A stretch of 64,000 nucleotides of DNA. Origin: Nitratireductor indicus C115. Its GTDB lineage: Bacteria > Pseudomonadota > Alphaproteobacteria > Rhizobiales > Rhizobiaceae. A model generated the notes under the pieces. The model did no database searches, had not been told where the DNA came from, and saw nothing but the letters and a program-made list of their open reading frames with translations. Position 1 is the stretch's first letter. Every line of letters begins with the position of its first letter. Below, piece by piece: positions 47,833 through 53,887 of this stretch. The stretch lies in NCBI RefSeq assembly GCF_000300515.1, contig NZ_AMSI01000005.1, positions 1 through 64,000 of the forward strand, written 5' to 3'. The translations under genes were made by a program, and so were the position numbers.

Positions 47833-47893
47833 CGCTCTCTTGTTTCCCGCATTCGTGCGGGCGTCAGGTGATTTCACCTGACTGCAAACTCTA
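47833..47893. repeat. dispersed palindromic repeat, copy 1
   Basis: About 60 bases with a perfect core palindrome GTCAGGTGATTTCACCTGAC (47863-47882), preceded by CTCTCTTGTTTCCCGCATTCG and followed by TGCAAACTCTAG. The same element, reversed, occurs at 50187-50245, and a diverged one at 54231-54285. It lies just upstream of the ggt ribosome binding site. Confidence 0.8.
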
Positions 47894-47912: not shown

Positions 47913-49676
47913 GTGCACTTATCGCAAAATCTGACATCGTTTGCTCTCCTGTCCAGCCTGCTGCTTGCGACCGGCAGCGCGCTTGCCCAACAGGCAACGG
48001 ATGCCCATGCCCCCGAAGCCGCGAGCGGCATGGCCGAAAAAAGCGTCGTCCACGCCAAGACCCATATGGTTGCCGCCGCCAATCCTCTGGCCGCCGAAGC
48101 CGGCCTTGAAATCCTGCGCAAGGGCGGAAGCGCGGCCGACGCGCTTATCGCAGTTCAGACCGTCCTTGGCCTTGTGGAGCCGCAATCTTCCGGCATAGGC
48201 GGTGGGGCATTCCTGGTCTGGTACGATGCCGCAAGCGGTAAGCTCTCCACTTTCGATGGCCGGGAGACAGCGCCCGCCGCCGTCACGCCGAAGCTCTTTC
48301 TGGACGACAAGGGTGAGCCCCTCGCATTCTTCGATGCGGTGGTGGGCGGGCGCTCCGTCGGCACGCCCGGCGTCGTGCGCCTGATGGAAGCCGTGCACGA
48401 AAAGGCCGGCAAACTCTCCTGGGCCGACACGCTTCGACCAGCCATCAAGCTCGCGCAGGAGGGCTTTTCCGTTTCGCCGCGCCTCAACGCCCTGCTGGGC
48501 GAGGACAAGGGCAAGCTCGATCGGCAAGCTGTGGCACGCGCCTATTTCTACGATCAGGCCGGAGAGCCGCTTGCCACCGGCACGGTGCTGAAGAATCCCG
48601 ACTATGCGCAAACGCTGACACTCATCGCCGAAAAGGGTGCGGACGGGTTCTACGCCGGAGAGGTCGCGGAGAAGATCGTCGCCGCCGTCAAGGCGCATGA
48701 AGGCAATCCGGGCCTGCTTTCGCTGGACGATCTTTCTTCCTATGAGGTCAAGGAACGGGAAGCCGTATGCGCTCCCTATCGGGGCCTCGATGTCTGCGGG
48801 ATGGGACCGCCCTCCTCCGGAGCGCTGACCGTCGGCCAGATTCTCGGCATGGTGTCGCACTTCGACCTTGCGGCACTCGGCCCCGAAGATCCCGAAAGCT
48901 GGCGCATCATCGGGGATGCAACGCGCCTGGCCTTCGCCGATCGCGGTCGCTACATGGCCGACGCCGATTTCGTGAAGATGCCGGACGGGCTTCTCAATCA
49001 GGACTATCTGAAAGACCGTTCCAATCTCATCCGGCGCCCCACCGCGCTCAGCGCCGACGAGGTCAAGGCGGGCACCCCGCCATGGGATAAGGCCGAGCTG
49101 CGCATTGACGGGTTGAACCTCGAGCAGCCTTCCACTTCGCATTTCGTCATCGTGGACGATCAGGGCAACATCGCTTCCATGACCACTTCGGTGGAAAGCG
49201 CCTTCGGTTCGCGCCAGATGGCCGCCGGCTTCATCCTGAACAATCAGCTGACCGACTTCTCCTTCTCGCCTGAAGAGGATGGCCAGGCCGTAGCCAACCG
49301 TGTCGAACCCGGAAAGCGGCCACGCTCCTCAATGTCGCCCACCATCGTCCTGAAGGACGGCAAGCCGGTCTACGCGCTCGGCTCTCCCGGCGGCAGCAAC
49401 ATCATCCCCTATGTGGCCAATACGATCATCGCGCTGGTCGACTGGAAGATGAACATGCAGGAAGCAATCGACCTGCCGCATCTGACAAACCGTTTCGGCA
49501 CCTATACGGTCGAAGCAGGAACCTCGGCTGAGACCCTCGAAAAGGATCTTGCAGCGTTCGGCTTCAAGACAACCGTTGGAGACCTCAATTCGGGCCTGCA
49601 TGGCATCGCCATTCTTCCCGGTGCGCTCGAAGGCGCTGCCGATCCGCGCCGCGAGGGCGTCGCCCTCGGCGACTGA
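47913..49676 (+). CDS. ggt: gamma-glutamyltransferase (periplasmic)
   Basis: A 587-residue Ntn-hydrolase precursor that cleaves or transfers the gamma-glutamyl group of glutathione. A signal peptide (LLSSLLLATGSALA) targets it to the periplasm. The large-subunit part has GSAADALIAVQTVLGLVEPQ and SSGIGGGAFLVWYD. Autoprocessing would occur before Thr408 in EQPSTSHFVIVD, followed by SMTTSVESAFGSRQ and the oxyanion/glutamate site LGSPGGSNIIPYV. Start is GTG at 47913 with AAGGAGG seven bases upstream, the best ribosome binding site in the region. A good terminator follows the stop. Confidence 0.94.
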   Translation: MHLSQNLTSFALLSSLLLATGSALAQQATDAHAPEAASGMAEKSVVHAKTHMVAAANPLAAEAGLEILRKGGSAADALIAVQTVLGLVEPQSSGIGGGAFLVWYDAASGKLSTFDGRETAPAAVTPKLFLDDKGEPLAFFDAVVGGRSVGTPGVVRLMEAVHEKAGKLSWADTLRPAIKLAQEGFSVSPRLNALLGEDKGKLDRQAVARAYFYDQAGEPLATGTVLKNPDYAQTLTLIAEKGADGFYAGEVAEKIVAAVKAHEGNPGLLSLDDLSSYEVKEREAVCAPYRGLDVCGMGPPSSGALTVGQILGMVSHFDLAALGPEDPESWRIIGDATRLAFADRGRYMADADFVKMPDGLLNQDYLKDRSNLIRRPTALSADEVKAGTPPWDKAELRIDGLNLEQPSTSHFVIVDDQGNIASMTTSVESAFGSRQMAAGFILNNQLTDFSFSPEEDGQAVANRVEPGKRPRSSMSPTIVLKDGKPVYALGSPGGSNIIPYVANTIIALVDWKMNMQEAIDLPHLTNRFGTYTVEAGTSAETLEKDLAAFGFKTTVGDLNSGLHGIAILPGALEGAADPRREGVALGD

Positions 49677-49849: not shown

Positions 49850-49878
49850 TTGACTTGTGAACATAAATAGAACATAAA
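49850..49878 (+). promoter_or_regulatory. promoter with LexA (SOS) box in the spacer
   Basis: A -35 hexamer TTGACT (49850-49855) and a -10 hexamer CATAAA (49873-49878) are separated by exactly 17 bases. Inside the spacer lies a perfect GAAC-N7-GAAC (49859-49873), the direct-repeat LexA box of alphaproteobacteria. A LexA dimer here would block RNA polymerase, so the downstream 28-codon gene should be DNA-damage inducible. Confidence 0.75.
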
Positions 49879-49906
49879 GGGTTCATAAAGAGATCAGGAG
49901 GGAATT

Positions 49907-49993
49907 ATGACCGATCTGTTTCAGGATGTCATCTCGCTCGTCGCCGTCAGTTCATTCATCATGGTCGCCGCCGTCTTCATCGGCGCGTTCTGA
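49907..49993 (+). CDS. 28-residue membrane peptide, candidate SOS cell-division inhibitor (SidA-like)
   Basis: A tiny gene with a strong ribosome binding site (AGGAGGGAA, five-base spacing) behind a LexA-box promoter. The product has a short polar start (MTDLFQDV) and one hydrophobic span (ISLVAVSSFIMVAAVFIGAF) ending at the stop. Size, topology and SOS control match SidA of Caulobacter crescentus, a 29-residue inner-membrane peptide that blocks division through FtsW/FtsN. No sequence alignment was made, so homology is not claimed; the match is in architecture. It is monocistronic between the ggt terminator and convergent lolD. Confidence 0.75.
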   Translation: MTDLFQDVISLVAVSSFIMVAAVFIGAF

Positions 49994-50181: not shown

Positions 50182-50961
50182 TTAGAGCATTTTGCAGTCA
50201 GGTGAAATCACCTGACGTCTGCATAAATGCGGAAAAACAAAGAGATAGATCGGCTCAGGGTTTCCGTGAAACGGTGATGCCTTGAAGGGAACGACCTTGC
50301 CGCCATCAAGCGTGACCACGCGATCCATGCGGGCAGCAAGCTCATGGTTGTGGGTGGCGATCAAGGCTGCAAGGCCCGACTGGCGCACAAGCGCTTCCAA
50401 GGCATCGAACACATAGCTTGCCGTCACAGGATCGAGATTGCCGGTCGGCTCGTCCGCAAGCAGAACCCGTGGCGCATTGGCAACGGCGCGGGCAATGGCC
50501 ACGCGCTGCTGCTCGCCGCCCGACAGTTCGGCCGGCCGATGGCTGGCGCGATGTCCCACACGCAGATAATCCAGTAACTGCCTGGCACGGGCGCTCGCCT
50601 CGGCAGGCGCCATGCCCGTGATCATTTGTGGCACCATCACGTTCTCTTCGGCCGAGAATTCCGGCAGAAGATGATGGAACTGATACACGAAGCCGATCTC
50701 GTTGCGGCGGATGGCGGTGCGCGCATCGTCTGAAAGACCGCCGCAATCGCGGCCGCCAACGATGACCTGCCCCGCATCCGGCGCTTCGAGTAGCCCGGCA
50801 AGATGAAGAAGCGTGGACTTGCCGGCACCGGAAGGCGCAACCAGGGCGACCATCTCGCCGCGCTTGAGCGAGAATTCCGCATCCTTCAAAATGGTCAGGC
50901 TGCCGCTTCCCTCCCGATAGCTGCGCTCTATTCCCTTCAATTGCAGGATTGGAGCCGCCAT
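50182..50961 (-). CDS. lolD: lipoprotein-releasing ABC transporter ATPase LolD
   Basis: A 259-residue ATPase that powers extraction of lipoproteins from the inner membrane. Walker [13 protein letters not shown], LolD-typical [17 protein letters not shown], signature [14 protein letters not shown] and Walker [12 protein letters not shown] are intact. ATG at 50961 overlaps the lolC stop (TGATG). The normal end of LolD is expected near [12 protein letters not shown]; the last ~30 residues ([19 protein letters not shown] and onward) are read from a dispersed palindromic repeat, so the native stop has been replaced. The extension probably does not disturb the ATPase core. Confidence 0.92.
50187..50245. 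repeat. dispersed palindromic repeat, copy 2, inside the lolD 3' end
   Basis: The core palindrome GTCAGGTGAAATCACCTGAC (50197-50216) and flanks TTAGAGCATTTTGCA and the GCGGAAAAACAAAGAG side match copy 1 at 47833-47893 in inverted orientation. In the lolD frame it encodes a tail ending [12 protein letters not shown]. Copy 1 in one frame reads a near-identical [11 protein letters not shown], showing common origin. Confidence 0.85.
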
Positions 50962-52274
50962 CAATCGTACCTCAGAGCCTTGACCGGATCGAGCCGCGAG
51001 GCGCGCCAGGCGGGAAACAGCGTTGCCAGGAAGGACAGGGTCAGTGTCATGACGACCACGGAAACCGTTTCCCCAAGTTCCATCTTCGCGGGCAGCTGGC
51101 TCAGGAAATAGAGCTCGGGATTGAAGAGCGTCGTGCCCGACAGCCAGGAGAAGAACTGGCGGATCGATTCCACGTTCCAGCAGATCACCACACCGAGGAC
51201 CAGCCCTGCTATCGTGCCCGCGATGCCGATGGCAGCCCCCGTCATCAGGAAGATGCGCATGATCGCCCCGCTGGTCGCCCCCATGGTGCGCAGGATGGCG
51301 ATATCATGCCCCTTGTCCTTAACGAGCATCACCAGACCGGAGATGATGTTGAGCGATGCGACGAGCACGATCATGGTCAGGATCATGAACATCACATTGC
51401 GCTCCACCTGCAAGGCGGAGAAGAAGGTGCTGTTGCGCTGACGCCAGTCAGAAAGCAGAATCGGACGCTGGGCCGCCGCCTCCACCGCCGGGCGCAATGT
51501 GTCCACGGCATCGGGATTGTCGACGAAGAGCTCGATCGACTGCACCAGGCCTTCCGCATTGAAATAGAGCTGCGCTTCCTCGAGCGGCATGTAGATGACG
51601 GAGGAATCATATTCCGACATGCCGATCTCGAAAGTCGCGGCAACGGGATAGGATTTGACACGCGGCGTCGTGCCGAAAGGCGTGATGTCTCCCTCCGGCG
51701 CCACCAGCGTAATCATGTCGCCGACGGACAGGCCGAGATTCTGCGCCATGCGGGTGCCGATCACCAGCCCCTCGCCGGCGGCGAAATTCACCATCGAGCC
51801 ATCACGGATGTTCCTGGAAACCAGATCGAGGCGCGCGAGGTCTTCTGCCCGCACCCCACGCACGATGGCGCCCGTTCCAGCACCCGATGTGCCTGAGACC
51901 AGCACCTGTCCCTGGACCATAGGCATCGCCAGCTTGACGCCCGTAACGCCCTCTATCCGCTTTGCAACGGCATCGAAGTCGTTAAGCGGCATGTCGACCG
52001 GCTGAACGATCAGATGGCCATTGACGCCCAGAATGCGGGTCAGGAGCTCCGCCCGGAATCCATTCATCACCGCCATCACCACAATCAGCGTGGCAACGCC
52101 AAGCATGATGCCGAGAAAGGAAATGATGGCGATGACGGAAACCACCGTTTCCTTGCGCCGCGAACGCAGGTAGCGCCAGGCCACGAGCCTCTCGAAATGC
52201 GAGAACGGTCCAGCTCCCTTCGGAGCGGCGTCTCCCGGTGCGGCGGCTACCCCTGTGGTGGCGGCGTCGCTCAT
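50961..52274 (-). CDS. lolC: lipoprotein-releasing ABC transporter permease LolC/LolE
   Basis: A 437-residue inner-membrane permease with one span after the start ([20 protein letters not shown]), a large periplasmic domain (about 75-290) and three C-terminal spans ([20 protein letters not shown] onward). The family end motif [15 protein letters not shown] is present. With LolD it hands lipoproteins to LolA. Start ATG at 52274 has AGAGG upstream. Alphaproteobacteria usually have one such permease in place of separate LolC and LolE. Confidence 0.93.
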
Positions 52275-52314
52275 TTCCAAACCTCTCGGATCGTGGCCGG
52301 GCCGGGCCGCTTCA

Positions 52315-53658
52315 TCAGGCGGCAGTCCCCGCCGGGTTGGCAGCGAGGCGGTTGAGGGCGGCTTCAAGCGGCATGGTCTCGCGCTCGCCCGTAGCGCGGT
52401 TCTTGATTTCCACCTCGCCATTGGCCACGCCGCGCGGACCGACGATAAGCTGCCAGGGCAGACCGATCAGGTCGGCGGTTGCGAATTTTCCGCCCGCGCG
52501 CTGGTCGGTGTCGTCATAGAGCACGTCCTTGCCGGCGGCCTGCAGCTTCTCGTAAAGCTCTTCGCAAACCCGGTCGCACTCCCCGTCGCCCGCCTTCATG
52601 TTGATCAGGCCTATGTCGAAGGGTGCCACGCTTTGCGGCCAGATGATGCCGTTTTCATCGTGGCTCGCCTCGATGATGGCCGCCAGAAGACGGCTCGGAC
52701 CGATGCCGTAAGATCCCATGGACACGAAATGCTCCTTGCCGTCCGGCCCCGTGACCGAAGCGTTCATGGGCTTGGAATACTTCGTCCCGAAGTGGAAAAT
52801 ATGGCCGACCTCGATGCCGCGGGCAGAAACCTTTTCGGCTTCGGGAATGGCATCCCATGCCGCCTCGTCATGCATCTCGTCGGTCGCCGCATAGGGCGTC
52901 GTCCAGGTTTCGACAATACCGGCTATCTGGCGGTCATCGCCGAAATTCACGTCCGCCGAGGGCACTTTGAGATCGAGGAATTCCTTGTGGCAGAACACTT
53001 CGCTCTCGCCAGTGGAGGCGAGAATGATGAATTCATGCGAAAGGTCACCGCCGATGGGGCCCGTATCGGCACGCATCGGGATCGCCTGCAGACCCATGCG
53101 GGCGAAGGTGCGCAGATAGGCCACGAACATACGGTTATAGGCAGCGCGCGCGCCCTCATAGTCCAAGTCGAAGGAATAGGCGTCCTTCATCAGGAATTCG
53201 CGCGAGCGCATCACGCCGAAACGGGGGCGGACTTCGTCGCGGAATTTCCACTGGATGTGATAGAGATTGAGCGGCAGGTCCTTGTAGGACTTCACATAGG
53301 ACCGGAAGATGTCGGTCACCATCTCCTCGTTGGTCGGGCCGAAAAGCATCTTGCGCTCGTGACGGTCGGTGATGCGCAGCATCTCCTTGCCATAGTCATC
53401 GTAGCGGCCGCTCTCGATCCACAAATCGGCCGACTGGATGGTCGGCATGAGGATTTCCTGGGCGCCTGCACGGTCCTGTTCCTCACGCACGATGGCGCAG
53501 ACCTTGTCGAGCACGCGCTTGCCGAGTGGCAGCCAGGAGAAGCTGCCCGCGCCCTGCTGGCGGATCATGCCGGCGCGCAACATAAGGCGGTGGGAGACGA
53601 TCTCCGCCTCACGGGGAGTTTCTTTCAGAATCGGCAGGAAATAGCGCGACAGTCGCAT
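52315..53658 (-). CDS. proS: prolyl-tRNA synthetase
   Basis: A 447-residue class II aminoacyl-tRNA synthetase of the short alphaproteobacterial type, lacking the editing insertion of E. coli ProS. Motif 1 is around [20 protein letters not shown], motif 2 is [20 protein letters not shown] and motif 3 is [16 protein letters not shown]. The start [13 protein letters not shown] at 53658 is the family consensus start; an upstream ATG in frame would add a non-conserved 27 residues. It precedes lolC and lolD in the same direction, a common order in this group. Confidence 0.95.
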
Positions 53659-53887
53659 AGACGCATCCATTTGGTCGGCTCCGGGAGCCATGATCGGAAT
53701 CAGAGCCGCAAAACGACCCGAGTGCGGCTTCTTAACCATTTCGCAATGGATTGAAAACCCGCAGGAACACCCTGTTTACGCGCAGGACCCGACGTTGGGG
53801 CGTTGCAGAGCAAGGCCTGCAGCCGTCAATGATAACAATGCATTTCAAACACAATTTTCCTCGTGACAATTCGTCTCAACTTGCTCT

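Follow-up and report, generated by a model that had tools for sequence, protein, structure and literature searches.

The window (the whole stretch of 64,000 nucleotides that was analysed) carries on its plus strand a 28-codon open reading frame (49907-49993, with the ATG at 49907 and the stop codon ending at 49993), which is predicted from conservation, coding pattern and profile alignment to encode a SidA-like single-span membrane peptide. A promoter can be read from the sequence of the same strand. It consists of the -35 hexamer TTGACT (49850-49855) and the -10 hexamer CATAAA (49873-49878) with a 17-base spacer between them, and a LexA-type operator, GAACATAAATAGAAC (49859-49873, plus strand), is located inside the spacer. 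The ribosome-binding site AGGAGGG (49896-49902, plus strand) lies within a block conserved among relatives. A sequence-only reading of this DNA had pointed to the GAAC-N7-GAAC box within the TTGACT/CATAAA spacer, the ribosome-binding site and the 28-codon frame, and all of them are present as claimed, the 28 bases it gave being the distance between the -10 hexamer and the ATG. The polar start and single membrane span it proposed for the product would be in line with the peptide sequence, MTDLFQDVISLVAVSSFIMVAAVFIGAF, in which the final 21 of the 28 residues are uncharged. Its Brucella-group label for the host was wrong; the host genus is Nitratireductor.

ggt, coding for gamma-glutamyltransferase, is located upstream (47913-49676, plus strand; TIGR00066, 403.4 bits, above the cut-off). 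On the other side lies lolD (50182-50964, minus strand), a conserved neighbour convergent with the peptide frame; its best match is TIGR02211 LolD with an E-value of 4.1e-74, at 248.8 bits under the model cut-off of 307.75. It is followed by a lolC/E permease gene (50961-52421, minus strand; TIGR02212 lolCE, 499 bits, above the cut-off) and proS (52315-53739, minus strand; NF008979 proline-tRNA ligase, 768 bits, above the cut-off). The segment from ggt to the peptide gene is flanked by the arms of an inverted repeat (47835-47888 and 50191-50244), 54 bases each, 85 % complementary and 2302 bases apart, with the palindrome GTCAGGTGAWWTCACCTGAC in each arm. This repeat looks like a dispersed intergenic element.

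The GAACN7GAAC pattern is found at three places in the window, where 1.81 would be expected, and 27 of 100 shuffles contain three or more. Genome-wide it has 160 occurrences and the reversed pattern 111. On these counts the box taken alone is within the range of chance and proves little. A generic promoter scan, whose rule demands T as the last base of the -10 hexamer, did not list the TTGACT/CATAAA promoter and gave at this site only a minus-strand promoter-like site over the start of the frame. The peptide itself matched no Pfam or NCBIfam family at E<=10. The commonness of the box pattern would by itself permit reading the locus as a chance ORF next to a chance box, so the case for a gene has to come from conservation.

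The peptide frame was found in all 11 genomes of the genus, with the box exactly at -48 in each of them, perfect in ten and with one mismatch in one (L011). Across nine Nitratireductor sequences, the block between -60 and +90 has a mean identity of 0.67-0.93, compared with 0.21-0.32 downstream and 0.28-0.53 upstream of it. Conservation thus covers promoter, operator and coding frame and hardly extends beyond them. The same nine sequences differ at the three codon positions 119, 38 and 331 times over 1008 codon comparisons (233 synonymous and 157 non-synonymous codon changes), and this pattern of differences by position indicates a coding gene.

A closest set of loci was assembled by keeping 80 of 139 relatives (Nitratireductor, Chelativorans, Mesorhizobium, Aminobacter, Aquibium and MAGs). 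All 80 have an ATG start, TTGA stands ahead of the box in 68 of them, and within 130 bases upstream the box is perfect in 76 and has one mismatch in the other four. Conservation of frame and box among relatives, which the sequence-only reading had named as a check on itself, is therefore borne out, and unlike the box alone it is beyond chance. With the frame in every genome of the genus, a coding pattern, and perfect boxes in 76 of 80 relatives against one in 3880 background windows, the chance reading is refuted and its probability can be taken as virtually nil. The 80 loci contain 121 boxes, many loci having two overlapping boxes 11 bases apart; the tandem GAACN7GAACN7GAAC in this 11-base register is seen in L034, L041, L046, L050, L057 and others, and the second box of the window is degraded. 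Such overlapping boxes may allow cooperative binding of LexA.

The host genome has a single lexA gene (TIGR00498, E 1.5e-52), preceded 63 bases before its start by the box GAACACAACTGGAAC, and by sequence the box of the peptide gene belongs to the type that stands before lexA in this genome. A tightened box, GAACAHNNNNNGAACAH, has 19 occurrences genome-wide and its reversed pattern four, and two of the 19 precede ORFs judged by eye to be imuA-like and ssb-like (L205, L207). In two near-identical stretches of the genome, G000:C2:315010 (L197) and G000:C46:140 (L212), small, related ORFs are preceded by a LexA-type box of the tightened form. The LexA site given in the accessible part of PMC12700426, GTTCN7GTTC, is the reverse complement of the window box.

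LexA-controlled single-span peptides of this size need not act on division. A TisB/DinQ-like SOS toxin would depolarise the membrane and drive dormancy, and would be checked by an antisense RNA. It would belong to the same size class, with one span and a LexA-type box, and DinQ, a peptide of 27 residues under LexA control, is described in the available portion of PMC3567139 as residing in the inner membrane and depolarising it; the minus-strand promoter-like site over the start of the frame also fits such an arrangement. However, the leader of the peptide mRNA is about 22-28 bases long, in contrast to the processed, regulated leader and antisense RNA reported there (PMC3567139), conservation does not extend past about -60 and +90, and the predicted folding of the mRNA is no stronger than that of shuffled sequences (z 0.43). 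The short unconserved flanks argue against an antitoxin RNA outside the conserved block; one encoded inside it, at the minus-strand promoter-like site, may still exist. Moreover, the peptide has a characteristic sequence that is kept across several families and connects to a family bearing the name SidA (see below), and we regard a toxin of this type as quite improbable.

Profile searches have found LexA-boxed peptides of 27-38 residues across Hyphomicrobiales. The samples comprised 297 genomes at the family level, 297 and 269 at the order level, and 385 (A2) and 289 (A4) at the class level. Tallies at E<=1 from the first family- and order-level searches are too lax for counting members; the family-level search gave a best E<=1e-3 in 143 of 297 genomes, a sample from which 16 profile rows were drawn. 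The A4 profile contains rows from G351, G448, G387, G561 and G372, so the order-search matches in these genomes are there by construction. In 40 other Rhizobiaceae loci picked from the family search, mostly one per genus, the box is perfect in 35 and has one mismatch in two. Outside Rhizobiaceae it is perfect in 46 and has one mismatch in eight of 60 Hyphomicrobiales loci, a set which includes doubtful matches and two Rhizobiaceae-free families. The background mentioned above comes from 3880 windows of 130 bases placed at random in these loci, one of which held a perfect box. Since the profiles hold no promoter sequence, the boxes constitute independent evidence.

The peptides share the core [RQKE][DE]xx[SA][LF]...F......W. 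Position 10 is S or A in all 63 peptides compared and position 24 is W in 47 of them, D/E7 and F17 being alignment anchors; the window peptide has F at position 24. Periodicity of conservation along a helix face is not significant (p 0.069, with the same two anchors included). One member, L070, has a perfect box at -47, lolC-lolD before it and dnaE after it; no box was found upstream of L095, and tblastn of the L042 peptide against plasmids gave nothing at E<=10.

Class-wide scans A2 (385 genomes) and A4 (289) gave no match outside the order that was convincing by score. Inspection of 34 weak class matches found a box upstream of two, L091 and L107. L091 (G909, family f61, Alphaproteobacteria) is a boxed 44-residue ORF with FKDIAALISVGAFIWVVSTW, a similar peptide; it does not match the SidA model NF033228. 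In L322, L327 and L341 (family f11) the motif is found near dnaE at the end of longer frames of 97, 110 and 136 residues, without a perfect box. These longer frames may represent a fusion or an earlier version that is not under SOS control.

L107 belongs to family f115 of another order. Its class-scan E-value of 0.077 placed it among chance matches, and the next class-wide scan (A4, 289 genomes) did not list the f115 peptide, but two perfect boxes and TTGAC accompany it. A search within f115 found the peptide in 14 of 16 genomes (L342-L355; the match in G865 is there by construction, as the search profile contains a row from it). These peptides have 29-31 residues, 12 of the 14 having 29, and their box is perfect in eight and has one mismatch in six. 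Family f115 is probably Caulobacteraceae or a near neighbour of that family. The RNA family RF01867, tried as a marker for Caulobacter, was no guide, as it matched in 80 of 372 genomes of the class.

NF033228 is the NCBI curated model "cell division inhibitor SidA", with 29 positions and a cut-off of 35 bits. At E<=1 it recognises every one of the 14 peptides from f115, the best with 5.7e-19 and nine with E<=1e-9. Two besides these nine exceed the cut-off, making at least 11 above it, and two others fall short with 23.5 and 20.5 bits. The f115 profile (A7) was aligned by hhalign with a Hyphomicrobiales-only profile (A5) at 95.1 % and E 3e-8, and with a Rhizobiaceae-only profile (A1) at 87.0 % and E 4.1e-6. 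Scored with the A5 model, nine of the 14 f115 peptides exceed the best of 4117 scored shuffles; with the A1 model just one of the 14 is above all shuffles.

The direct comparisons give less. With NF033228 the window peptide gives no match at E<=10, none of 37 A4 rows is matched, and one of 38 A5 rows is (E 0.067). Compared one sequence with another, the window peptide is weakly similar to the peptides of the SidA family. It also has no tryptophan at either place where a conserved one occurs, position 19 of the f115 peptides and position 24 of those from Hyphomicrobiales. The likeness to SidA, which had been offered without a claim of homology, is nevertheless seen to go beyond plan and size, given the A5-A7 alignment and the match of the SidA model to every f115 peptide. 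Via these intermediate profiles the window peptide appears to share descent with SidA-family peptides. It lies outside the equivalog family NF033228, under which it is not filed because its score does not reach the cut-off.

The gene neighbourhood is also shared. lolD is a neighbour in 75 of the 80 loci of the closest set, and in 72 of these 75 the peptide gene lies downstream of lolD in the same direction. An inverted orientation relative to lolD is seen in the window, L115, L127 and L177. The order in relatives is lolC-lolD-peptide-dnaE, with dnaE named by Pfam in four neighbourhoods. In each of 32 loci from six Hyphomicrobiales families, f50 and f115, dnaE is located directly downstream in the same orientation, a count which leaves out L294 and L295 (Rhizobiaceae), L296 (contig edge) and L070 (read separately). 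It is directly downstream in 34 of 40 further Hyphomicrobiales loci, as well as in L070. The six without dnaE beside the match are L305, L321 and L324, which look like chance matches, L329 and L333, which look like family members, and L322, where lolD and dnaE are present in a different arrangement; the other two f11 loci, L327 and L341, are located before dnaE. Among other Rhizobiaceae dnaE is downstream in 21 of 39 loci (L234, at a contig edge, is left out). The window has no dnaE, and none of the 80 loci of the closest set has one within 4 kb. Comparison of these loci suggests that the branch of the window has lost the dnaE neighbourhood, with lolD remaining.

In C. crescentus the positions can be worked out from locus tags. 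sidA is CCNA_02004 (PMC10769358), recN is ccna_02062 (PMC12700426) and, in the older numbering, CC1983, with dnaE being CC1926 (PMC1839093), as given in the accessible passages of these papers. The two recN tags give an offset of 79, which places dnaE at about CCNA_02005, so that sidA would lie beside dnaE in Caulobacter as well.

Taken together, the peptide frame of the window is probably a diverged orthologue of SidA, repressed by LexA and acting on FtsW/FtsI/FtsN. LexA bound to the operator within the promoter spacer would block RNA polymerase. DNA damage would activate RecA and lead to LexA cleavage, releasing the repression, and with the strong ribosome-binding site the 28-residue peptide would then be made in a burst and enter the inner membrane, its short acidic start remaining in the cytoplasm. 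The helix of the peptide would bind FtsW (with FtsI/FtsN) and hold off septal wall synthesis, and the hold on division would end after repair, once LexA re-accumulates. This mechanism is taken over from Caulobacter SidA, and both damage induction and division arrest by the window peptide are presumed by analogy with it. SidA is a 29-residue inner-membrane protein whose interaction partners are FtsW and FtsN and whose suppressors map to FtsW and FtsI, according to the available text of PMC4211646, and filamentation of the lexA-null strain depends on sidA, according to that of PMC12700426.

An SOS-induced peptide of SidA ancestry could also have shifted its target in Hyphomicrobiales to another inner-membrane complex. 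Many Hyphomicrobiales grow from the pole, the sequence has diverged past the reach of the SidA model and the conserved tryptophan has moved, all of which would suit such a shift. Against it, the locus, the promoter plan and the length are the same, and the core [RQK][DE]xx[SA]L..F is common to both groups. We consider a shifted target unlikely and prefer a SidA orthologue acting on the divisome.

We put forward as a tentative possibility, which we do not favour at present, that SidA is the ancestral SOS division brake of much of Alphaproteobacteria, fixed between lolCD and dnaE, with its promoter reading into dnaE. If so, the lolCD-peptide-dnaE order would mean that DNA damage raises the replicative polymerase together with the division brake, and the dnaE link makes joint control of polymerase and division open to direct test. 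Similar genes occur in many rhizobia-like bacteria, so the present name may understate both the age and the spread of this brake. The parts of the literature that were searched yielded no SOS division inhibitor named for rhizobia and their kin, nor any account of such a peptide from an organism other than Caulobacter. Annotation relying on NF033228 would miss these peptides, as the model leaves nearly all Hyphomicrobiales members unmatched. The family also supplies many natural sequences for finding the residues needed to hold FtsW off.

Several known systems resemble the window gene to different degrees. DinQ and TisB of Escherichia coli are likewise LexA-controlled single-span peptides of similar length, but they have the anatomy of type I toxin-antitoxin loci with an antisense RNA (PMC3567139, in its available part), and the window has no such conserved flank. 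DidA of C. crescentus is also a small single-span damage-induced division inhibitor; it differs in having 71 residues, in being SOS-independent and in binding FtsN, as reported in the accessible part of PMC4211646. YneA of Bacillus and SosA of Staphylococcus are SOS-induced membrane division inhibitors, and an interaction of YneA with FtsW is reported; both are likened here by their description. The closest system is SidA of C. crescentus (CCNA_02004; NF033228). The window peptide differs from it in being unmatched by NF033228, in lacking the FVWMVC motif and in having Q-D at positions 6-7 where the SidA side has R-D/E, and its gene is not beside dnaE in Nitratireductor. They are nevertheless alike in length (29 residues in SidA and 28 here), in the single span, predicted here, in a LexA site within the promoter, putative here, in profile homology bridged by family f115 and, as far as the relatives of the window gene are concerned, in the place beside dnaE.
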